A stretch of DNA of 64,000 nt. Origin: Thysanoteuthis rhombus (taxonomy: Eukaryota > Mollusca > Cephalopoda > Oegopsida > Thysanoteuthidae). Every line of letters begins with the position of its first letter. The stretch's first letter is position 1. The stretch is from NCBI GenBank assembly GCA_963457665.1, contig OY735231.1, positions 41,154,024-41,218,023 of the forward strand, written 5' to 3'. Below are positions 3,617 to 64,000 of the stretch, in pieces. The notes beneath the pieces are model-generated. The model saw only the letters and a program-made list of their open reading frames with translations. It had not been told where the DNA came from and did no database searches. The translations under genes were made by a program, and so were the position numbers.

Positions 3617-4631
3617 ATGCTGTTACTGACCCCCTCAACCGCCTGCATTCTCTTTACTCTGCTTATCAGTCCTCTTGGCTCTTTTCACTCGTCTAGATAT
3701 CTGCCTTGATGGTAATTCTCCATCTACTGCAGTCTGTGGCTACAGTCTCACAGCAGGCAGGATTGTTGCCTGCCTTCAGTTCTCTTTTACGAACGTCTCT
3801 TTAATGGAGGACAAACTTTACTGCAGGTTTAAAGCCAGTGACTATTCCGCCATACAAAATGATTTGACCGAACCATTCTGAGGCAATGATATAATTGTTG
3901 AATGAGTGTAACGCAATTACTGTCAGGCAATGACATTATGTCAGCAATTACGCTACACATGTCAAGCGATTATGACAAGCAATTAGGATACCAGTCAATA
4001 AGAATCAAAGGAATAAATGAAAACTGCTGACTGAGCATTTGAAAATCTAACTGATCCCAATTTCCTTTCTAATGAATATTAGCGCAATCATTCGCAATCA
4101 TTCACTCATTTTCTAGAAAAAAAAAGACATAAAATGCAATTTCCGATAACTGTTCGATCGCCCATCATCAAAAATTATTTATTACATTTAGAATTAAACA
4201 TTTAGAATCACATTTAGAATAATGATCAGACATTGTTGGCTATTCCATAGTATATTTCCTCATCTGAGTTGATGATAATCCGATTCTAATCAGTTATGCC
4301 GAAACCAGCTTAGGAACAAAACCACGGTATTCGACTTTGATTGGAAATATTTTAGTCGTCAAGATATTTCTCGATTATATTGTTACTTTTCCAGCTTGCA
4401 ATTTTGTGCACAGTCAATATTTTTTTCAAAATGAATTAATGTAGATTTTTTGATACAACATATTAATTGGTTTACCCTACAACTTAATAAGGTGAATAAC
4501 TACCTGCTGTTCGGTACCTTTTATTTACTTGCTAGTTTATTATCCTTTATTATAGGCTTCCAGAAGGTTGATCAAAGTTTCGGCTTTCCAACTGTTTTGA
4601 TAAATATGTTTGTTTATAAAGTTCAAGTCCG
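3617..4631. other. GC-richer patch then AT-rich DNA
   Basis: 3617-3800 remains GC-richer than its surroundings and may belong with the Cys-rich ORF or with an unrecognised repeat. At about 3895-4000 there is a degenerate array of short blocks like 'tgtcaggcaatgacattatg'. Nothing else was recognised. Confidence 0.4.
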
Positions 4632-4912
4632 ATCACTGTGACCCAGGAGTGGAATACTTACTTCCAGTTTGGTATGCAGTTGTTTAATCCACCGCTGAGT
4701 CATAACACAGACTTCAAAAATGGTGCTCAATGTTCCTCCGCTAAGCATTCAGCAAAAAGACTAGGATTGAAGAACCTCTCTCCGAGACTGAAGGGTTATA
4801 GCTAAAATCACGATGGATACACCGGCTCGCTTGTAATCATTGAAGTTATGCGACGTCAAGACTAGTCTGTACCTAGATGAATGACCATTGGGGAAAACTG
4901 GGTACGTCAGTA
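4632..4912 (+). repeat. Composite SINE: tRNA-like head plus 5S-rRNA-like body (copy 1)
   Basis: The head (about 4632-4703) reads like a tRNA with box-A-like 'cccaggagtggaatactta' and box-B-like 'gttgtttaatccacc'. A linker with 'gactaggattgaagaac' follows. From about 4793 the sequence follows a 5S rRNA: 'ggatacaccggctcgct', 'gaagttatgcgacgtc', then 'gtacctagatgaatgacc'. These match the 5S internal control elements with many substitutions. Copies with the same order occur at 41.5 kb (forward) and at 25.6 and 52.6 kb (reverse), so this looks like one transposed unit and not a chance juxtaposition. Confidence 0.75.
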
Positions 4913-5339
4913 GAACGAGGCTTTAATGGACTTGGCAAGCCGGAAATGGATATTAGTAACAATGGACACTCTCAATGAGGATATAATCTGAGAATAACAA
5001 TATATACACAAAATGAAGGATTTTCCTTCGGGGATAATATAAAAAATGTAAGAAAACAAAAAAAAGTGGCTTGCCTGAGCAATCAAAACATTCTACCCAT
5101 TATATTCGCAGACATCATTACTGTTAGTCCGTCTGAAATACCTTAGAAAGATTCATAAAATGCCGGCAGTTATGCTGTATTTATTCGTATTGATTCCTCC
5201 CTTGTGTGTGGTTTGGAATAACGATTGTATATTTTTGGCTTTTGTAAGTTGATCTCTAATAACTATTGGGTCAAAAAAGTGTCATCAACTGATTATAAGT
5301 GTTTGTCTATGCAGTATAGAGGTTGTATATCCTCGATAA

Positions 5340-5600
5340 TAATCGATTACCGTGGCTTTGCAATAGAGTGCTCACCTCCAGTCTGGTAGGTCGTGGGTTT
5401 AATCAATGGTAAAGTCTATCAAATACTTTCAGAATTATACCCAATGCCTCTCTGGTTGGCATTTAGCATAAAAAGTAAGATTGAAGAAGGTTGGAGAGGG
5501 ATAATCTCTCGCACAAAACTCAACAAAGATGGGTGACCCAAGACAAGATAAATGGAACCGAACCCCTGCACTGAGTTACGGGACAATGGACAGATAGACA
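5340..5600 (+). repeat. SINE with the same tRNA-like head but a different body (copy 1)
   Basis: 'ttgcaatagagtgctcacct' (A-box side) and 'ggtcgtgggtttaatcaa' (B-box side) form a tRNA-like Pol III head close to that of the composite SINE. The body is not 5S-like: it ends 'cccctgcactgagttacggg', matching 'ccctgtactgacttacgag' in the copy at 35.5 kb. This suggests body exchange around a shared head. Confidence 0.65.
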
Positions 5601-11160: not shown

Positions 11161-11520
11161 AATTGGTCAACGTTCTCTAACAATAGAAAGAAGAAAACTC
11201 CTTGAAGTCAGATTTTTTAGGAATGTCTGAAAGATATCCTCTATTGAGGTAAACCTGAGAGAGATAATATGAAAAAAAGATGTTAATAATCGAGGATAAG
11301 TCGATGGAATTTAAATCATGGATATCTATTATCAATCAGCACAGTGTACTTTTGTCTCAATTCAAAACACGAATACATAAATAAGGTAATGCTGTACCTT
11401 ACATGGCGCTGGGGCAACCAAGAACCCTAGCGCCGATCAGAGAATGTTCTGGCAGAAAAGTAGTGCTCAGAACAACAATGATGAAGATACAATTTCAAAT
11501 AACCCATGTGATAAAAATCA
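11161..11520. other. AT-rich DNA, nothing recognised
   Basis: No clear element or gene. The 60-codon ORF starting at 11403 runs into the 5S-like segment and has no independent support. Confidence 0.45.
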
Positions 11521-11590
11521 CATTAACAATTGCAAGATCACTGAAGTTAAGCAATGATGAGCCTGGTCAGTGCGTCGTTCGGTAATAATA
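11521..11590 (+). pseudogene. 5S rRNA-like fragment
   Basis: 'gatcactgaagttaagcaat' followed by 'gagcctggtcagtgcg' matches the middle of a 5S rRNA (box A region and beyond). The 5' third and the 3' end are absent or unrecognisable. Confidence 0.6.
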
Positions 11591-12316
11591 CAGGAATACT
11601 AAATGCTGTGAGAGAACAAAGCAGCGACAAGCCAAACAAGCCGGCATTGGATCTTACAAAATCTTGCCCGTAAGTACTTAACGAATGGAGTTATAAGCGG
11701 TCAACGAAGGTTCATTCATAGATTAATGGAAATCTGTGAAGATTTGAAGAACAATATCGATCTCAAAGGCTGGAAACTTTGGTAGCAGCTTCATCGTTTG
11801 AAAAGATCTTTAAAATCAAAGTTGCGTGGAAAAAACGAAAGAATAATAATTATAAAAGGGAAAATGGTATCACCTAGACGGAAGAAATTTTGAAAAGTAG
11901 TCATGATGAGCGATTTAATAGCTTGCCTTAATGCTGAACTACAATTCCTTCTTTGAAAAAAAAAAATAAACAAGCAAATAGCCCCCGCCCTGCAGTAATT
12001 CATTATAACTAGCCCCTAAAGAAAATTATCACATTTCTTCCTTTCGGCCTTTTCAATTCTATACCTTTCAAAGTGATCAAAATGATCTAGTGATAAAGAA
12101 CTTGTTTCTAGTTTAGTGAGCTGTTTAAGGACATGAAACATTTAAATAGGATTAATCTATTTCAGATTCCAGCCGAAAGGTGTTATTTAACGTGAGTATT
12201 TTGATATTTGTGTTTACAGTGATCGTTTAGTTAGTGTCTCACATTTCTTGCCGTTACACGGTAACATTTCCCTTTTTAAAGGTTAAGTGTTGCAGCATAA
12301 AGAGAAATTGAATTGA
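11591..12316. other. Region upstream of the 147-codon ORF
   Basis: AT-rich with no recognised repeat. A donor-like 'gtgagt' (12192) and an acceptor-like 'tgtgtttacag' (to about 12219) lie within about 30 bp, too close for a normal intron. The second could be an acceptor for an exon leading into the ORF. A reverse ORF at 11791-12003 has no motif. Confidence 0.35.
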
Positions 12317-12760
12317 ATGAACATTGTAAACAGAAGCAGTCTTTCTCCAGCTCAGTTCCTGCAACGGCTTCCAGATTTAACTGAACCCATTGGCCTCGCA
12401 TCGTGTTACCAAATGATTTCAAAATATCCGATGCATTATTTAAGTGAACAGGTAGGAAAGAGAGGAGACAGTTTTCATGCTCTCGTACGTTTGACGCCGA
12501 TCACAGTGGCTGAATGTTTGTCTCCGGTTCAGGAGTCCGTGGTTCAATCAACCAAAGACTTTGGTTTATTCATTCCGTGGACTATGATTGAGGAACTTCC
12601 CCTAAGAAGTTACGTCTTAATCAAGTTGAAAACACGGATTCTCGTGAAGAATACCAAAGGTGAGAAACGTTGCGCCTTGGTTGACGCATTGGGAAATACC
12701 AGGTGCCCTGCCGAGCTGGAAGTGGATCTTATTAAAAAAAAGCTACCCATTTGTACCTAA
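12317..12760 (+). CDS. Uncharacterised 147-residue protein or large single exon
   Basis: This is the strongest protein-coding candidate. It is a complete ATG-to-TAA frame of 147 codons, free of simple repeats, with mixed soluble-protein composition and a higher G+C than its flanks. The product looks globular with no signal peptide or membrane segment. It includes 'SPAQFLQRLPDLTEPIG' near the N-terminus, 'DFGLFIPWTMIEELP' in the middle, and alternating hydrophobic residues ('YVLIKLKTRILV') followed by a lysine-rich C-terminus. I do not recognise the family. The third-base pattern and absence of stops argue for recent selection. The ATG lies just before 'gtaaacag', so an acceptor there is an alternative to initiation. 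It could be an intronless gene, an exon, or part of an unrecognised element. Confidence 0.5.
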   Translation: MNIVNRSSLSPAQFLQRLPDLTEPIGLASCYQMISKYPMHYLSEQVGKRGDSFHALVRLTPITVAECLSPVQESVVQSTKDFGLFIPWTMIEELPLRSYVLIKLKTRILVKNTKGEKRCALVDALGNTRCPAELEVDLIKKKLPICT

Positions 12761-13184
12761 CCCTGCAGCACCTTCAATGTGAATACATACATTGTATTTC
12801 TATGAAATGATTTTTAAGGAAAAGAAACTATTTAATGCATTTCAGTAGAAAATTCTATTGTTTCAAATGGAGGGTAAAAAGACACTTTTATCAGCAAAAT
12901 TACGTTGAAGTGGATGAGTTCATTGTTACGGACAAAATGATTTTTGAAAATCGCACTAATCATTATACAAGTAGATTTGCTTAATAGTTTTTACAATTAA
13001 GAACAAGAGAATCACTGAATAAATATTCATACGCGACGTTGTTCCATACCATTGTGTCTTTGGCACTGACAACATGTAATACAAAACTATGTTCATGACG
13101 CAGTAAAATCGATAATAATCATTGCATTTAAGCGACAACCAAGTCTACTTCGAACCTAACAGTTGGAGATTGAAGAACAGTATC
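12761..13184. other. AT-rich DNA downstream of the ORF
   Basis: No clear polyadenylation cassette beyond common A/T-rich words. A 60-codon reverse ORF here is not credible. Confidence 0.4.
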
Positions 13185-25318: not shown

Positions 25319-25479
25319 TCTCTCAGGAGATATTTTTCTGAGCCAATTGAGACTCTTGGGATGACATCATATATCTGGTTTTGCTCACAAAAATCGAGGG
25401 TGATGCATGGTCAAGTAAACACGAGTAATTGTAAGTAAGATCGATTCCCGGCTCGCCAGAGTCGTCAACGTTTCGTTCT
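25319..25479. other. Spacer
   Basis: No feature recognised. Confidence 0.5.
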
Positions 25480-25760
25480 GCTTATGGCACTCGGTATTTT
25501 GTGAACGTCACCCATCTGGATACTGACCAGGCTCGACGTTGTTTAATTCAGCTGAATTTACGAGAACCGGTCTATCCAACATGATTTGCTCATAGGACCT
25601 GGCTTCATTTAATCCCTGTGCTCTGTCTTAATCCTCGTACTGATTGCTTACAAGAGAGTTATTACTTTTATTTTAAAAGTCCTTGGTATAACTTGGTGTA
25701 TTGAACGACGGCCTATCATATTGGAGACGAGCACTCTACCACTATGTCTCTGTGATCGGT
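25480..25760 (-). repeat. Composite tRNA+5S SINE, reverse copy (copy 2)
   Basis: On the reverse strand a tRNA-like head (25690-25760) shows 'catagtggtagagtgctcg' and a B-box-like 'cgtcgttcaatacacc'. A linker with 'acgaggattaagac' follows, then a 5S-like body (25600-25480). Plus-strand landmarks of the body are 'cacccatctggatactgacc', 'aggctcgacgttg' and 'gagaaccggtctatccaac'. Order matches copies at 4.7, 41.6 and 52.6 kb. Confidence 0.8.
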
Positions 25761-28331: not shown

Positions 28332-28423
28332 TATTCTTAAAAAATTAGATAGATGCTCCTTGTTTGCCAGTCTTAATGAGAGAATCATACACACACACAC
28401 AACACACACACACACACACACAT

Positions 28424-28478
<55 letters not shown>

Positions 28479-28542
28479 TGTGTTTGCGTAAATCCTTCAT
28501 TAAGAATGGCAAACAAGGAGCATCTATCTAATTTTTTAAAGA

Positions 28543-31795: not shown

Positions 31796-31835
31796 CGATA
31801 TATATACATACACACGCATATATATATATATAGCG

Positions 31836-31869
<34 letters not shown>

Positions 31870-31870
31870 A
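31796..31870. repeat. (TA)n-(TG)n compound microsatellite
   Basis: Interrupted once by 'tagcga'. Confidence 0.95.
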
Positions 31871-32130
31871 TGAAATGTTATTTTTAGTGAGAACTCTTTT
31901 CGATACAACACATTGTTTCGTCACGTTAGATATATATAATTGAGATTATATTATTATCATCATAATTATTCAGTTCGATTGAAAATCATTATCTCAAGTA
32001 TCATTTTTTTTCTTCAAAATAATTTCCTGTGTTAAGGGAACAACAAAAGTGCTGATATTGGCAGTAGATAACAAGACGAGATTAGGTAAGTAGCAATTAT
32101 TTGAACTTCCAATGAACAGTTGACTGCTTT
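31871..32130. other. AT-rich spacer
   Basis: No feature recognised. Confidence 0.5.
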
Positions 32131-35534: not shown

Positions 35535-35790
35535 GAGTACTCGTCGATCACTGTGACCCAGTGGTGGAATGCTCGCCATCGATTTGGTAGGTTAGGGTTC
35601 AATACATGGCAGGTCCATCCAATCAAATATAAGACAATTTCCCTTCTAAGCACTGAATATAAAGAATCAGAGTGAGGAAGCCTACAGAGCTCTGTCAGGC
35701 CCAAAACACATTTGTGAAAAATTGTTTTCCAGCGATACAGTATAGAGAATGGAAAGCCCTGTACTGACTTACGAGACCAAAATCAATGAC
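35535..35790 (+). repeat. SINE with the shared tRNA-like head, alternative body (copy 2)
   Basis: The head 'gatcactgtgacccagtggt', then 'ggaatgctcgcc' and 'gttagggttcaatacatggc', is very close to the composite SINE head. The tail 'ggaaagccctgtactgactt' parallels the 5.3-kb copy and not 5S rRNA. Confidence 0.7.
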
Positions 35791-40688: not shown

Positions 40689-40940
40689 TTCTGCATATCT
40701 CATAACACTCGCGCCACAGAGGATGGTCTATGTCGGCAAGTTTCGATCCATCGTAAACAAATCCATGCCATTGGCACTTCTACTTACTGATCTATCTAAA
40801 GATCTTCCTGGCCAATAAAAAGCAAAATACACGGAAACGAGATTAGCCGACGTGAACGTGAGGTTACAGCAAATTTAACGGTGTCTTCGATTTTGATGTA
40901 TTTACTTCTTTCTTCTTGTCTATTTTTATAGAGTCTGTCT
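40689..40940. other. Spacer
   Basis: No feature recognised. Confidence 0.5.
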
Positions 40941-41052
40941 ATACCGCCAAATTGCATCGGATACAGCAGTTCTCATATGATCATCGGTTAAGCAACATCA
41001 AGGAACTAGATGGGTGACCAACTGTGCATACAAGACACTGCAAGCAGCTGGG
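40941..41052 (+). pseudogene. 5S rRNA-like element without a visible tRNA head
   Basis: 'taccgccaaattgcatcgga', 'gttctcatatgatcatcgg', 'ttaagcaacatcaagg' and 'ctagatgggtgacc' follow 5S rRNA order. The 3' end retains 'tgcaagcagctgggg', as in the 58.9-kb copy, indicating a shared body extending beyond 5S. Confidence 0.75.
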
Positions 41053-41474
41053 GGTCATGTAGAGACCCTCCGGTGACGATCAAGTTGATCTTCTCAAAGA
41101 GAGGACAGAATGCTACGATCGATAACGCAAAAATCCCCAGACGACCCAAACCCCTTGATTGGCCTGACTGCTTGCGACAATAAATCAATAAATGAATAGA
41201 GTCTGACTGTATCATTTCTGAAATGTAGAGTATTGTGCAACGTCATTAATTTCCTGGTCCTTCGATCCATCTTAAATCGAAAGGTGCAGCGTATCTCACG
41301 AGTGATAATTGCCATGTATTGATCGATGCTTATCAGACTTCTGCCTTTGTGTCTTCTCTACAAGATCTCGCTAATTTTCATGAGGTAATCATTTCCCAGT
41401 TGCTCTTTTGTTCTTTGCTATCTTATTGAAGCACATTCAACGGTCGTTCGCGCTCAATGTACTAATTGAGGAAT
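41053..41474. other. Spacer
   Basis: No feature recognised; short reverse ORFs overlap the 5S-like flank. Confidence 0.45.
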
Positions 41475-41746
41475 CATACCAGTGCCCCTGTGTTAGTGTT
41501 TGTCTTCAGTTCTGCGGGCCATGGTTCAATCCACTGCCGAGCCATCGTAAAGACTTTGAAATTGTAATCAATGTATCTCCGCAACGTACAGACTAGGATT
41601 GTAGACCCCCCCCCCCACCTCAGGCTACGGGATTACGGTCAAATCATGTAGGATAAACCGGTTCTCGTGAGATCACCGAAGTTGGGTAAGGCAAAGCTCG
41701 GTCAGTGCTTAGATCGGTGACCAATGGGTTATACCAGGCGCCGAAT
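41475..41746 (+). repeat. Composite tRNA+5S SINE, forward copy (copy 3)
   Basis: The head (about 41475-41552) has a B-box-like 'ccatggttcaatccact'. The linker reads 'cagactaggattgtagacc', nearly the same as copy 1. A 5S-like body follows from 41631: 'acggtcaaatcatgtaggat', 'ccggttctcgtgagatcacc', 'gaagttgggtaaggc', 'ggtcagtgcttagatcgg'. It is among the clearest copies of the composite. Confidence 0.85.
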
Positions 41747-41989
41747 AACATTTCAAGAAGCCTGGCTGGCTACGAGTTGGCCTAACTATTGTTCGTGTGT
41801 AGTTAACCCTGATTCACCGGGAATAAGCGGAGAACTATGATGCATGGTGATATGGCAGTTTGATTCCACCAATAACGATGTGTTTCTTTTTATTCATAGC
41901 TAATTGCTAATGTCTTATACTGAGTTCTATTCCTATGTTGTAGTGTTTTTTTCTGAAGTCCTGCTTGAAACAATGCTTCAACCACTTTT
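41747..41989. other. Spacer
   Basis: No feature recognised. Confidence 0.5.
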
Positions 41990-52315: not shown

Positions 52316-52479
52316 ACTTGAAGAAAAAGAATAAAAGTAAAAAAAAAGAAATTAGGTGAAGTACAAGTATGTTTCATTGTTTCTGCTTATACCTTCTTTG
52401 AGGAAATTGTAGGGTTAGATACAACCGGAAATTCGTCTGTAAGACCCACCTCCAGCTTGCCAGGCTAATCATACCATTG
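52316..52479. other. Spacer
   Basis: No feature recognised. Confidence 0.5.
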
Positions 52480-52764
52480 TTCTGCTGGTATACCTGGTAT
52501 TCCCTAATATTCCTATCGAGATACTGACCAGGCTCGACGATGCTTAATGTAGGTGACCTTAAAAAAAATATTGTATCAAAACAACATGATTTGGGCCTCA
52601 ACCCTTTAGCCTCGCATACCGGTCCTGCAATCCTAATCCTTGAGCTGAGTGTCTAGCCGGTCGGCATTGAGCAACATTTTGGCCGTCTTGACTCGCCGGC
52701 AGATTGAACCACGCCAAACCAGCCCGGACATGAGCACTCTACCACTCAAGCACTGTGATCGGTG
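52480..52764 (-). repeat. Composite tRNA+5S SINE, reverse copy (copy 4)
   Basis: The reverse-strand head (52764-52690) reads 'cttgagtggtagagtgctca', 'gcgtggttcaatctgccgg'. The linker contains 'ggattaggattgcagg'. The 5S-like body (52597-52480) shows plus-strand landmarks 'tcgagatactgaccaggctc', 'gacgatgcttaa' and 'tacctggtattccct'; its 5' part is disrupted by an A-rich insertion. Confidence 0.8.
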
Positions 52765-53005
52765 ATGAAAGATGAGTATGATATCGAAATGAAAAAAAAT
52801 ATCCGTTGAGTAAAACAATTTAATCACCTGTATCATTATTTGACCTCTAAGAATAATGGAAACATAGCCTGACAAAAAAACTTAAGTAAATAATCTTTTC
52901 TCATATCAATATGTCAGAGAAAATCCAAACATACATAAATGAAAACAATATCTCCAGATGTTTGCTGAGTAGATATATACAACACAGACAGCTGTTCACA
53001 AGTAA
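52765..53005. other. Spacer
   Basis: No feature recognised. Confidence 0.5.
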
Positions 53006-53108
53006 CTACGGCTTAATCGCGTTGAGTACATCGGTTCTCATACGATCACCGGAGTTAAGCAACATATGGTTGATGGGTGACCGCCAGGGAATAGCAGGTG
53101 ATGTAAGC
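53006..53108 (+). pseudogene. 5S rRNA-like element, best-preserved control region
   Basis: 'ctacggcttaatcgcgttga', 'atcggttctcatacgatcac', 'cggagttaagcaaca' and 'gatgggtgaccgccagggaa' follow 5S rRNA closely; about 8 bases are missing after 'aagcaacat'. No tRNA-like head upstream. Confidence 0.8.
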
Positions 53109-53834
53109 AGCTAGCATCATATAGAGAGCCTACTATAGCGATCCAGTTATTTTCCTCCCAGGCAGAGACTGATCTCTACACTTCGCTCATTCAGCTTCCC
53201 CTTTTCAATCCTACACCATGAAGGAAAATAGCCGTTGGGGATAACAATCTGGAATCCGCGTTAGTGTTTGACCAATGAGAATAATCGAAAAAAAGCAAGG
53301 CGGAAAATATAGGTAAGCAACCTTTCCTGAAATCAATACGTTTGATCAAAGAAAATCCTATATACGTTATGGAAACAATCTCCTCAGATGTTTTCAGAAT
53401 AGATAGATAACCCAGAGATTCAATCAACAAGTTTTGAGTTAGGGTATCTCCACAGCTTCCTGTAAAGACAGAAATGACAACAGCAAAGCTACAAATGATA
53501 TTATAAACAAAGAACAAACAGTGTCATTGCAGTCCCCACGCGATCGAACGTTGACGTAAACATAGGCAGGATACTACAAAAACAGAAATAAAAACCTGTG
53601 GAAAGTGAAAGCGAAAGCGAAAGTGAAGGTAGCTGCAATCGTTGGGAGAACACAAGGGACAAAAACGGAAAGGATGTAGAATAAATTGAAAGGAGTTGAT
53701 ATGAGGGAAAAAAAAGAATTTCTATTCTACACACATGAAGCATCCTCTGAAAAGAACTTGAGATTTCTAAAGGCTGCTTGTTTCCAAATGTCATCAAATG
53801 AAATATATTGCCAAGAGTTCAGTATATTGTTGTA
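53109..53834. other. AT-rich DNA, nothing recognised
   Basis: A short purine tract ('gtgaaagcgaaagcgaaagt') at 53607-53626 and unsupported reverse ORFs. Confidence 0.45.
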
Positions 53835-55734: not shown

Positions 55735-56072
55735 GTACTGATTACTTTTTGGGAGCATGCTGTACTGGGGTTGATCAATAAAAAAAATTGAAAAGGGGTG
55801 ATAAAGTCCCTTGTTTCATATTTTGCTGGTCAGTGATCACTAAAAAAATCTGATTTTTTGAAAATCAAGCATGAATACAACCAAACACAAACTAAGAGAT
55901 CAATTAAGATAAACTCACATTGTAAAGTGAAACTCTCACTGATAAAAAAAATAAAAAAATAAATAAATTTTTAAATTTTCAGCCCTCTAGCTCGATGGGA
56001 CCAACTTGAAAACTGGAAAAATTTATGTTGACAGTTTTTTGTGACAGTTTTGGCTGACGTTTTCTTGCAAGA
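55735..56072 (-). repeat. Rep-A interspersed repeat, reverse copy
   Basis: In plus-strand reading: 'gattactttttgggagcatg', 'ctgtactggggttgatcaat', 'cagtgatcactaaaaaaatc', 'aactaagagatcaattaaga' and 'gtgacagttttggctgacgt'. A 5S-like segment starts within about 10 bp of its end. Confidence 0.8.
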
Positions 56073-56079
56073 AACCAGT

Positions 56080-56195
56080 TTACGGCCAAATCACATTAGA
56101 TACACCGGTTTTCCGTGTGATCACCGAAGTGAAGCAACGTCGACCCTGTTCAGTACTTATATTGGTGACCGTTCGGGATAACCGGGTGCAATACA
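56080..56195 (+). pseudogene. 5S rRNA-like element next to Rep-A
   Basis: 'tttacggccaaatcacatta', 'gatacaccggttttccgtg', 'tgatcaccgaagtgaagcaa', 'cgtcgaccctgttcagtact' and 'gataaccgggtgcaa' follow the whole length of 5S rRNA with few gaps. It is among the fullest copies. No tRNA-like head upstream. Confidence 0.85.
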
Positions 56196-56299
56196 TCAGC
56201 TCCTCAGTTGCTCGTTGCCAGTAAGTCTACTTTACATAGATATTTGCGCTACGGGAAACCTTGGCCGGGACAAATGATGCCATAGCCGGGGCACCAGCT
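56196..56299. other. Spacer
   Basis: No feature recognised. Confidence 0.5.
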
Positions 56300-56655
56300 A
56301 AACAAGAAACTGAATTGAATACCCGAAGCCACCAAAGGTGGCGAGAGGTTCTATCCACTTTATACATGTGCATCTGTTTAATTGTTTATGTATCTGTGCT
56401 TCTAAGTGCTCTTGGTCATAGCGTTTTATCTACAGACTTGAAAATCGGCATCACAACACCACTAGACTTTTTTTTCGATTTTTGGAAAAAAAAGCTTTTT
56501 GACTTTCTGGGTTTTTCATTTTGACGTATTTATTAATAACATCAAGATTATCCAGGATTTTTTCAAACCATACGTATTTTTTCGATGGAATTTTCAACAT
56601 GACTTCTAGTTTGGACGCTACAGTTGTTCAATTATTGACTGTAATGAAGAGTTAT
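56300..56655 (+). repeat. Rep-B interspersed repeat, near full-length copy
   Basis: 'agccaccaaaggtggcgaga' (a short palindrome), 'tgctcttggtcatagcgttt', 'tacagacttgaaaatcggca' and 'ctacagttgttcaattattg' are collinear with other copies. The middle has a T/A-rich replacement. Confidence 0.8.
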
Positions 56656-56892
56656 TAATGATTTTAGAGATGAAACGAAGTAATTGGAATCAAAATTGAC
56701 GGATGATGTAGCTCTGCGAAATAGAACAGTTGTGAGTTACTTGTAACTTGCAGCCGTTCAAGACAGGGGGTTAGGGGCTAGGGGATTTTGGTCTGTCTCA
56801 TTGAGCAGTGTGCAGAGATTGGTCTCTTTCCCACAAGGAATAAAGATAATGATACAGGCTTTCTACATTATCGGAAGCTGCTAACAACAACT
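56656..56892. other. Spacer
   Basis: No feature recognised. Confidence 0.5.
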
Positions 56893-56968
56893 GGTGTTGC
56901 CAGATGTTCACCCATCTATGCTCTGACCAAACTCAACGTTGCTCAACTTCGGTGATCGCACGGGAAGT
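56893..56968 (-). pseudogene. 5S rRNA-like fragment, reverse strand
   Basis: Plus-strand 'gttcacccatctatgctctg', 'accaaactcaacgttgctca' and 'acttcggtgatcgca' is the antisense of the 5S box A to box C region. Ends incomplete. Confidence 0.7.
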
Positions 56969-57294
56969 TGCTTGCCTAACGCGAATTCATTGCAACATAG
57001 CTTCGAGGTCAAGCGAGTTTATTACAGTTGCGGGAAGGGTTTCTCATTAGAAGAGCTTCCCAACTTCATTAACAAAAGGAAGCTCAACATAGTTCTTGGG
57101 GCGTGCAATGAGAATTCCCAAATAAAATTGGCTTGGAATTCACAAGCGGAAATGTAAGTCTTGTTGGTGATGGTTTCACATAGTTGGTCGATATCTAACC
57201 CTCATTCTCTTATGATAACACAACGCCTAGGGTTGATTAGCATGTTTTGGGACTGATAAAATTAGGGTCTCACTAATCCTTCAAAAAGAGACAG
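56969..57294. other. Spacer or flank before the LINE
   Basis: No element boundary could be fixed; short ORF only. Confidence 0.4.
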
Positions 57295-57665
57295 TCCCGT
57301 GAATTGAGAACCATGCAACGTGCACATGAAAGAATAATGCTGGGCCTCACATGGAGAGACCACAAGACAGCACAGTACATCCAAGAAAAGACAAGAGTCA
57401 GGGACATCATAAAATCCATTGAAAATCTCAAATGGCGGTGGGCTGGCCATGTTGCAAGAATGGCAGACAACCGATGGACCACACGACTCACGACATGGAT
57501 CCCCCGAGATCACATGTGCAACCGAGGCTGGCAGAATATTAGATGGCGAGACGAGCTAGACAAGTTCAGGAAGTACTGGCTCCGCGACGCCCATGATAGA
57601 CAAGTGTGGCAAATCCTGGGGAAGGTCAATGTCCTACGACGGACGTTAAAAGACTGATGATGATA

Positions 57666-57712: not shown

Positions 57713-58844
57713 CAAAGGTGTCAACATACGATTGCATCCTCCCGCTGACGTTTTGTATTTGTCCTTCAGAAGGTGATAACCAGATGTGATGATATCACGC
57801 TGATTGCTATATTTCGATAAATATGTATATCCAATATTTTTTATGATTACCGTACTTTTCGGCGTATCGGACCTGCCTTTTTTTCAAGTTCTGTCTCGAG
57901 AAGCGAACGCTTTGTCGGTTGTTTGCCAACCTTATATCGCTCCGTAAATAATGAAAACAGCTGTGGGGATTAATTTGGATTTGAATAGATAAGATTCGAA
58001 TAAGCCGATAGTATGAAAGGCTATCAAGACCGTGCAAAAAGTGAGTCGTTTCATTTTTTTTTCCAAGAATAGACCAGCAAAACTATTGTGGTCATGTGCT
58101 TTATACCCCAGAAAATACGGTAATCCTCAAAAATTAATAGAACAATCGTCATTTTTTCGTTCTTATTGTATATAACACAATGACAATGTTTTTATCGTCT
58201 GCAAAGAGTCGCCTGTTGCACTCATAAGTAAATTTACCCATCAGAGAATGCAATTACCATGTTTGTTTTTTTTAATTACTCTTTTCATTTGAACTGAATA
58301 AGTATCATTTGAATCAACCTATTCCCCGACTACTAAGCAAGTCCAAGTCACCAACTCTACGGTGTCATTTTTTCTTCCCGTCACAGCTATTTATCACATT
58401 TCTGATCTATTACCAAATAGATTTAAAGGAAGAAGTTCGTCTTACCAGGCACGAAACATGGTATATCATTTCGAATAACTATCCTCCCTTTATACTGTTT
58501 TTTTTTCTTTTCTAATGTGTGAGATCTATTGTTTATAAACTGATATTATGATTATATTTTTGTCAATTCTACTCGGGAGAAAATTTCTGGATGGTTACCA
58601 AATGTGAATAATTCTTGCCAGAAGGTTGAGCGACTGAAACCTGTTGATGAAGAATACAGGAAACGCAAAAAGGGGTACGAAAGAATCAGTAAGAGAGTAT
58701 AATTTTTCATGATAAGAAATAGTTCACATTCACCGTCGCTGGAAGGTATCAGCTTTGCTGTGAAGCACGCCGTTAGTGTTATCTTTCATCTTATGTGGTA
58801 TTTGGTATAATTTTTTAGGTTATTTTCTGTCTGGGAAATGTAAA
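57713..58844. other. AT-rich DNA, nothing recognised
   Basis: Unsupported small ORFs on both strands; no repeat partner. Confidence 0.45.
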
Positions 58845-58966
58845 GTTACAACCAAATTGCATTGGACACACTAGTTCTTGTACGAGCAACAAAGTTAAGC
58901 ATCTTTAGGCCTGGTCCGTATCTAGATGGATGTCCAATCGGGAATATCTGGTGCTGCAAGCAGCTT
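58845..58966 (+). pseudogene. 5S rRNA-like element
   Basis: 'acaaccaaattgcattggac', 'cactagttcttgtacgagca', 'acaaagttaagcatctttag' and 'gcctggtccgtatctagatg' follow 5S rRNA order. The end 'ggtgctgcaagcagcttggg' is shared with the 41.0-kb copy. Confidence 0.75.
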
Positions 58967-59756
58967 GGGGACATGTACAGAGCTTCCCGTTGCTTTTGTA
59001 CACTTTGCACAAAAATACAAGAATGTCCCCCTACTCCCCTGAACCCACTTGTTAAGTTGGCTGCGAGTGATCAAAAATTAATCAATAAGGATTTCATTAC
59101 ATAAATTAATGGGGACTGCTTCTTCAGGTTGCGTTATTTCGGCGTTAATCACTTCTTCACTTCAAGCTCTTTCACCATTCCCCATTTTTGTCAATAAGAT
59201 TATTAGTTTTCCTCGTTCCATTCAAGTTACACCAAAAAGATAATTATTTTATTGCACGTATAATTGGACAGCTTCACGATAAGAATCATTCATTAAAAAC
59301 AATGGAACCAATTGAGGAGAACGACCAAAAGATAACACTATAACTGGAGTCTAAATAATTTCAATAAACAACACCGGGAAGAAAAATCCAGACTTTTTGT
59401 TACGCAATCATATTCTGTCTTGCATCACACATCCTCATTTCCCTGAGGCCAAAAGCATTCACAACGACTTCTGTTTTTTACTAAATAGCCTTATCCTTCA
59501 GTTTGGACAACCTAAATTCCCCCTCCCCTGGTTTGGAACTAATTTTTTAGATGTTTGCATTAGTAAAGCTAATCATTAATTTGCAGTCTACTCTTAAGCA
59601 TTGACTTAGTAATGAGGTTGTAAAGGCGAAACTATCAATAATTTCTGAAAACAAAAATAAGGGGAGGATTTTGATGATCATATCCTTGGATGCTGCGGAT
59701 CTTAAATATAACTGAATAGATGATTCAAATGGAATTGAAAATTAGGGGTGATTCCT
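58967..59756. other. AT-rich DNA, nothing recognised
   Basis: No feature recognised. Confidence 0.5.
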
Positions 59757-60948: not shown

Positions 60949-61390
60949 TAGAGTGACGAAATGGCAACATTAGAGCCAATCCTCACCCTGGCCACGAAAT
61001 TTCTAGCTACGCCACTTTTACTGTCTCAGACCAAGCTATTGCAGAGGACGGGCAAAATCAAAAACACCGCCGGCGGATATTCTATTTAGCCAGTTGATGT
61101 TGCTAAGGCTAATCTAATCAAATATATTTATTGGATCAGTTAGTTGAGATCGCAGCATGAAAGCTGTCATGGAACCTTTCACGCTTTTCATGAAACGTCC
61201 ATTTATCTTATTAATCGGAAACATCTCGTCTCAACTAAGTGATGTAAACATGGGCATCCACTGCAACTTTTACAAGGAATACAAAAGTTTTCAGGAAGGC
61301 AAAAGGATATATTTCTGCGGGGAAGGGCCGAAAAGTTATGTTCGAAATATATCTAAGTGGCAACCCTCGATATCATATGATATTTATTTC
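60949..61390. other. Spacer
   Basis: A second 'gtcatggaacctttcacgct' region and an 89-codon ORF (61157-61426) that runs into the 5S-like element; neither supports a gene. Confidence 0.4.
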
Positions 61391-61508
61391 AGGGGGTTTA
61401 CGGTCAAATTACATTGGATGCACTAGTTCTCTTACGAACACCACTTTAAGTAGCATCCAGCCTCGTCAGTACCTAGATGACTGCTTGGGAATACCAGGCG
61501 CAGTAAGC
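61391..61508 (+). pseudogene. 5S rRNA-like element
   Basis: 'tttacggtcaaattacattg', 'gatgcactagttctcttacg', 'cctcgtcagtacctagatga' and 'gggaataccaggcgcagtaa' follow 5S rRNA; the box A region is diverged. Confidence 0.75.
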
Positions 61509-61537
61509 TGGAATACTGAGTGAAGCCACTTCAGGTT

Positions 61538-63640: not shown

Positions 63641-63774
63641 GAAATTCATTTTGAAAAATGAAAACCATTTTAATGTGTTTTGTGCAAAGCAGGGTAGGTA
63701 CCCCAATACATAGCTTTTTCTCGGAAAACTTAAATATTTTCACACGCATACACATATGAAAAGATATGCACATG
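63641..63774. other. Spacer
   Basis: No feature recognised. Confidence 0.5.
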
Positions 63775-63888
63775 CATAGCCAAATCACATTGAATCGACC
63801 AATTTTCATGTTAAGCAACGCCCAACCAGGTTGTAACCTCGATGGGTGACCATCTATGAATATCAGGTGCCATACGCAGCAACAGGAT
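63775..63888 (+). pseudogene. 5S rRNA-like element
   Basis: 'agccaaatcacattgaatcg', 'tgttaagcaacgcccaacca' and 'cgatgggtgaccatctatga' then 'atatcaggtgccatacgcag' follow 5S rRNA; the 'ccgatcaccga' segment is deleted. Confidence 0.75.
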
Positions 63889-63894
63889 TGTTAG

Positions 63895-64000
63895 GCATCC
63901 TTCTCAGCCGATGCACAGCCACCGATTAACGGAACAGCTTGCCAAGTTAGGATCGGACTGTGCACCTTAAGCACATGCAGCTCCATTGAGGACACATGAG
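63895..64000 (+). other. Possible LINE zinc-knuckle remnant cut by the window end
   Basis: 'taggatcggactgtgcacct' followed by 'aagcacatgcagctc' reads 'RIGLCTLSTCSS'. It is reminiscent of the 'SRIGL-x-SH-x-R' Cys/His box near the C-terminus of many LINE ORF2 proteins. The second Cys pair is not visible. Weak. Confidence 0.25.

Follow-up and report, generated by a model that had tools for sequence, protein, structure and literature searches.

The closest described systems are SINEs that contain a part derived from 5S rRNA or that join parts of different RNA origin. HaSE3 of Helicoverpa is described as a 5S-headed chimera of 5S rRNA and a tRNA-derived SINE, with which it shares its body and tail (PMC3272025), and PxSE4/5 of Lepidoptera are described as SINEs derived from 5S (PMC8010984). 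Vertebrate SINE3/AmnSINE1 is listed with a 5S origin and CR1 as its partner, and the same source gives springhare Ped-1/Ped-2 as 5S-derived and tRNA-derived SINEs that occur in one genome and depend on one LINE partner (PMC3747384). A 2020 account placed SINE3 in vertebrates and some insects and presents Tu-type elements and GarnAlu as fusions in which a tRNA-derived and a 7SL-derived SINE are joined (PMC7245038). In the 2.7-Gb giant squid genome, ~24,000 5S-derived and ~17,000 tRNA-derived loci were counted, and many of the RNA loci with extreme counts were considered likely SINEs (PMC6962438). Ceph-SINEs, first known from squids, also occur in octopuses (PMC7708342), and a bivalve study names V, Meta, Core, and MIR as SINE lineages of molluscs (PMC10294476).

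We analyzed a 64-kb stretch of Thysanoteuthis rhombus DNA (the window), in which an earlier note had pointed to a SINE with a tRNA-like head and a 5S-like body. This element, here called C, is dispersed in the genome and measures ~405 bp in a consensus of the window copy and 39 aligned genome copies. It consists of a tRNA-like head followed by a central domain (consensus 1–149), a linker, a 5S-like module (~166–286), and a tail of ~118 bp that lies 3′ of the 5S module and ends in ATACATAC (ATAC) repeats. We searched the 281 bases of the window copy against the 2.73-Gb genome and scored 40 matches among 1,201 first-look candidates, which comprised the query itself and 39 others at 71–77% identity, many of them near the full query length. 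These 39 were taken with their flanks and aligned to the window copy to give the consensus and a profile. In this 40-copy alignment, agreement per 60-base block was 0.79–0.86 in the five blocks wholly inside C and 0.44–0.48 outside C, over four blocks on each side; the two blocks at its edges gave 0.70 and 0.66. As is typical of SINEs, the unit is short and present in many scattered copies, with matches on many contigs. The alignment and genome search suggested by the earlier note thus yielded a dispersed family of one structure with a shared 3′ tail. We consider it very probable that C is a composite SINE that arose once, by the joining of parts of two other SINE families (A and B), and that is presumably copied by a LINE by way of its tail.

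Compared with the published cases considered here, the order of modules in C appears new. It does not follow the HaSE3 arrangement, in which a 5S head precedes the tRNA-SINE parts, and its 5′ end is not 5S-derived as in SINE3, because the 5S sequence begins at ~166, behind the head. The suspicion that a tRNA-then-5S order would be unusual holds against these cases, HaSE3 as described having the opposite order. No such SINE appeared among the matches listed in the openly licensed literature; four sequence words were absent from openly licensed paper texts, and a 21-base word taken from the central domain had no exact match in viral contigs. Still, there is a real chance that a catalog lists this order. 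It is possible, though we lean against it, that a catalog such as Repbase or SINEBase already contains the family, or that it has been named as a cephalopod SINE, which would be compatible with a chimeric origin. The giant squid counts, with many high-copy loci likely being SINEs, and the presence of Ceph-SINEs in both squids and octopuses make this more plausible; the lack of the tRNA-then-5S order among the listed matches, and of the sequence words, makes it less so.

The tRNA-like Pol III head described in the earlier note stood up on the C consensus but only weakly on single copies. An A box (TGGCCCAGTGG) lies at position 12 of the consensus and a B box (GGTTCAATCC) at position 54, and both also occur in the A consensus. 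Scored against the usual motif forms, the A box is an exact fit, and the B box fits the 10-letter but not the 11-letter form. With relaxed settings, ARAGORN called a tRNA-Arg at 5–74 of the C consensus and nothing for the A consensus; default settings gave no tRNA on the consensus, and none was called in the 64-kb window. Of 10 genome loci compared with the Rfam tRNA model, 1 matched, with a score below threshold. Both boxes, with at most one mismatch each, were found in 18 of 32 C copies and 13 of 21 A copies and were absent from the window copy under study, and the loose two-box pattern has a background of 0.95 occurrences per shuffled window. Judged from these motifs, C appears to carry a tRNA-derived 5′ head as in SINE2, with a modest likeness, fair for the consensus but weak for individual copies. 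Pol III would transcribe C from the tRNA-type A and B boxes of this head, and the transcript would cover the central domain as well as the 5S module.

The promoter boxes of the 5S module are nearly intact in the C consensus. Compared with the 5S gene, the IE box is identical, 2 of 15 sites differ in box A, and 3 of 18 differ in box C; all three boxes were matched loosely in 14 of 39 C copies. We therefore considered whether C has serial tRNA-type and internal 5S-type promoters and whether its 5S fold binds ribosomal proteins near the nascent reverse transcriptase of a LINE. Alu is thought to use SRP proteins, which is the parallel we propose for this fold. The support for this reading consists of the near-intact consensus boxes and the loose matches, and we regard it as unlikely. 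Copies starting at an inner 5S promoter were sought among 13 loci anchored on the tail. Six of these loci start at or before position 4 (L113 and L114 as split pieces), and the others start at 20, 43, 86, 119, 129, 175, and 227. None begins at 164–170, the nearest start being 175, so there is no sign of 5S promoter use in this sample, which is too small for excluding starts at the 5S module.

Each module of C is also present in another family. Family A begins like C, with this head and central domain, but then has a different 3′ part of ~110 bp without 5S, and its sharing with C stops at positions 130–151 in all 31 rows, which represent 29 distinct copies because L081 and L085 overlap. At one place (L081 1316–1626, the same place in L085), two A heads stand in tandem, ~22 bp apart. 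Family B starts at the 5S sequence, so that its 5′ end is 5S-derived as in SINE3, and continues into a body of ~140 bp that is peculiar to it and has an end resembling AATGAAT. Its best match to C starts at 160–173 and ends at 283–286 in 20 of 20 loci, and the two consensuses have only the 5S in common, bar weak chance-level matches. Copies of A, B, and C were each fetched with queries of their own kind; the clean family borders are therefore partly selected, and the counts for A and B describe these families rather than their abundance. A single locus (L125 163–484) contains two 5S-like modules ~200 bp apart.

The substitutions in the 5S modules link C to B. The 5S genes of this genome form a tandem array of ~297-bp units at C7:10.62–10.75 Mb (covering loci L050, L055–L060, L066–L070, and L073–L077), and we used the commonest sequence of the array as the reference over 118 sites. 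C differs from it at 14 of the 118 sites (~88% identity) and B at 16. At nine sites, B and C have the identical new base, an overlap that 100,000 random placements never reached. Five further sites are changed from the gene in B alone and three in C alone, and all three sequences differ at two. The Rfam 5S consensus at the nine shared sites equals the gene at four, B and C at two, and neither at three, and human 5S matches the array gene at eight of the nine. Because these nine substitutions relative to the 5S genes are common to both families, C looks like a chimera of two SINEs. In the simplest reading, C would have taken its 5S from a B-like SINE, a direction we infer from the sequences; a common ancestral 5S SINE for B and C would fit as well. 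C would have been born once, when the 5′ 149 bp of an A-kind tRNA-headed SINE became joined to the 5S head of a B-kind SINE, most likely via template switching in reverse transcription or via recombination.

Alternatively, C could have gained its module directly from the 5S genes, by capture of a 5S rRNA transcript, with B arising later from C by losing the head and gaining another body. The ~88% identity of its 5S module to the gene is consistent with such a capture, and SINE chimeras made by template switching are discussed in the literature (PMC7245038). However, the body and tail of B are absent from C, so head loss alone would be insufficient to make B. The shared substitutions indicate a common SINE ancestor but carry no direction, and the alternative partly survives them. 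We consider it improbable and favor the joining of an A-kind with a B-kind SINE.

Several results indicate that C moves as one unit, as the earlier note had claimed from the window alone. A 19-base word over the border of the central domain and linker, at the junction of head and 5S, occurs at 108 exact genome places, vs. none for the reversed word. Consensus 140–180 (41 bases), which spans this junction, is represented by 38–46 bases in all 40 copies and by exactly 41 in 27, whereas consensus 270–310 (also 41 bases), which spans the 5S/tail border, is represented by 16–56 bases and by exactly 41 in only 20 of 40. The 5S/tail border is thus less constant than the head/5S junction, and its deletions are scattered. 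A subfamily defined by these deletions was considered and rejected, as the gap ends differ among copies and resemble decay. In all 13 tail-anchored loci, the tail is preceded by the 5S module or a part of it (in L116 only from position 227).

Target-site duplications were scored in 34 near-full-length copies, of which 32 came from genome loci and 2 from the window, with a cut-off score of ≥9 and a control of 272 pairings in which flanks were swapped among copies. In six of the 34, direct repeats of 9–13 bases with no more than one mismatch flank the entire element, compared to 0 of 272 in the control, and the mean score was 6.0 for real flanks vs. 5.0 for swapped ones. Part of the C copies therefore have the duplications round the unit that are expected of a SINE. 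No duplication of score ≥9 was found in the other 28 copies, including the one under study; age would explain this absence, although it does not prove the point. The junction words, the constant junction, and the duplications together indicate that the head and 5S module are not independent insertions, and the fixed junction excludes separate duplications of the two parts as a rule. Although families A and B do occur separately in the same window, the idea that C represents separate SINEs landing repeatedly side by side has virtually no chance, given a junction that varies by no more than a few bases across all 40 copies, a junction word with 108 exact occurrences and none when reversed, duplications that enclose the whole unit in 6 of 34 copies, and a tail that was undetected in the A or B consensus.

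In the window, an nhmmer profile of the 40 copies, which include the copy under study and so match it by construction, found 16 places at E ≤0.01: five long C copies, one 3′ half, two head-plus-central copies, seven 5S-only copies, and one weak head fragment (E 0.009). A blastn search of the window with the reversed consensus gave nothing at E 0.01. The copy under study occupies 4628–5010 on the plus strand (hmm 2–403, E 5.2e-100) with head and central domain, 5S, and tail, and its 5S module lies at 4795–4915 (+), where Rfam RF00001 scored 24.3 bits (E 1.3), short of the gathering cut-off. Further long copies lie at 25370–25760 on the minus strand (hmm 2–373, E 1.2e-64; Rfam 5S at 25479–25597, 32.8 bits), 41472–41850 on the plus strand (hmm 5–400, E 2.1e-66; Rfam 5S at 41633–41749, 33.4 bits), and 52364–52763 on the minus strand (hmm 2–403, E 1.4e-72; Rfam 5S at 52482–52581, 22.7 bits). 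In these four copies, the Rfam 5S_rRNA match falls in the expected half, each below the gathering score of 38 bits.

The earlier note had located these four places correctly, and the profile together with the Rfam 5S positions gave the tRNA-like head and then the 5S body in one order and orientation in all of them. Its 3′ ends were 98–116 bp short of the profile ends because the common tail follows the 5S module. It overlooked a fifth long copy at 12496–12809 (+; hmm 15–382, E 1.7e-36) and a 3′ half at 11510–11720 (+; hmm 201–404, E 1.5e-27), along with two head-only relatives, seven 5S-only relatives, the weak head fragment, the tail of C, and families A and B, which share its modules.

The two head-plus-central places are family A copies on the plus strand, one at 5342–5584 (hmm 3–147, E 6.1e-24; A body at 5507–5584; without 5S) and one at 35543–35779 (hmm 3–149, E 2e-14; A body at 35692–35779). 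Three of the seven 5S-only copies continue into a B body and are 5S-headed family B SINEs: 40934–41189 (+; hmm 170–286, E 3.8e-13; B body at 41046–41189), 56737–57016 (−; hmm 168–286, E 2.6e-18; B body at 56737–56879), and 52995–53189 (+; hmm 167–286, E 2.8e-18; B body at 53116–53189). The other four are headless 5S-like modules without a detectable B body, all on the plus strand, at 56071–56203 (Rfam 5S 58.4 bits; hmm 169–280), 58824–58983 (44.8 bits; hmm 167–286), 61385–61533 (41.8 bits; hmm 165–286), and 63774–63909 (hmm 171–296, E 1.2e-15). A different dispersed repeat lies 3′ of a 5S-like module at 56310–56456 and matches several genome places at 76–79% identity. Rfam microRNA matches to the AT/GT microsatellites at 28402–28491 and 31798–31871 had low E values but scored far below gathering and are probably spurious.

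A LINE reverse transcriptase would copy C into new sites by recognizing its ~118-bp, ATAC-ending tail. A LINE partner was not found through this tail, as the 13 loci fetched from 41 tail matches were all C copies, nor through an open reading frame in the window (57277–57657, +) that we take to be LINE-like, which ends in GATGAT repeats, unlike the ATAC end of C. This frame and four others had no Pfam match. Related fragments were seen at four further places in the window and, not counting the locus of the window itself (L048), in 14 fetched loci. One C copy (L111 571–905) runs from position 119 and has an inverted piece of the C 3′ end at its 5′ break. LINE-driven insertions show 5′ inversions, which this copy recalls.

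The C family is old: no copy exceeded 86% identity to the full consensus among the 40 matches scored of 14,906 first-look candidates (81–86%). The tail alone gave 85–93% identity among its 40 best-scoring matches, reaching 93% over 90–103 bases, so single parts can appear younger than the whole element. Mean identity to the consensus was 0.83 for the head and central domain of C (40 rows), 0.82 for its 5S (40), 0.87 for the head and central domain of A (31 rows), and 0.84 for the 5S of B (20), all from query-selected sets. The exact junction word was present in 2 of 39 query-selected C copies and in 0 of 13 tail-anchored copies. Scaling its 108 genome places by the former share suggests a family of about 2,000 copies or more, with larger numbers if the latter share is nearer the truth.

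In C, a 5S module serves as the body of a tRNA-headed SINE, and because families with both modules persist, one genome suffices to follow how a chimeric SINE was made. In genomes of this kind, SINEs can also inflate the numbers of annotated 5S and tRNA loci. If C and the giant squid loci prove related, C would supply a concrete structure for many squid 5S-like loci, which were reported from a genome of the same size; the source, in the part that reports these loci, gives no element structure. Ped-1 and Ped-2, as listed, are two separate families, whereas C is a single tRNA-5S element. Like C, AmnSINE1/SINE3 (DeuSINEs) as described use a 5S-derived part, and AmnSINE1 itself is presumably a chimera of 5S and tRNA. 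The Tu-type elements and GarnAlu, as described, are fusions like C, but with 7SL in place of 5S. Finally, HaSE3 and PxSE4/5 are described with the 5S at the 5′ end as promoter head, whereas C has kept its tRNA head and carries the 5S internally.
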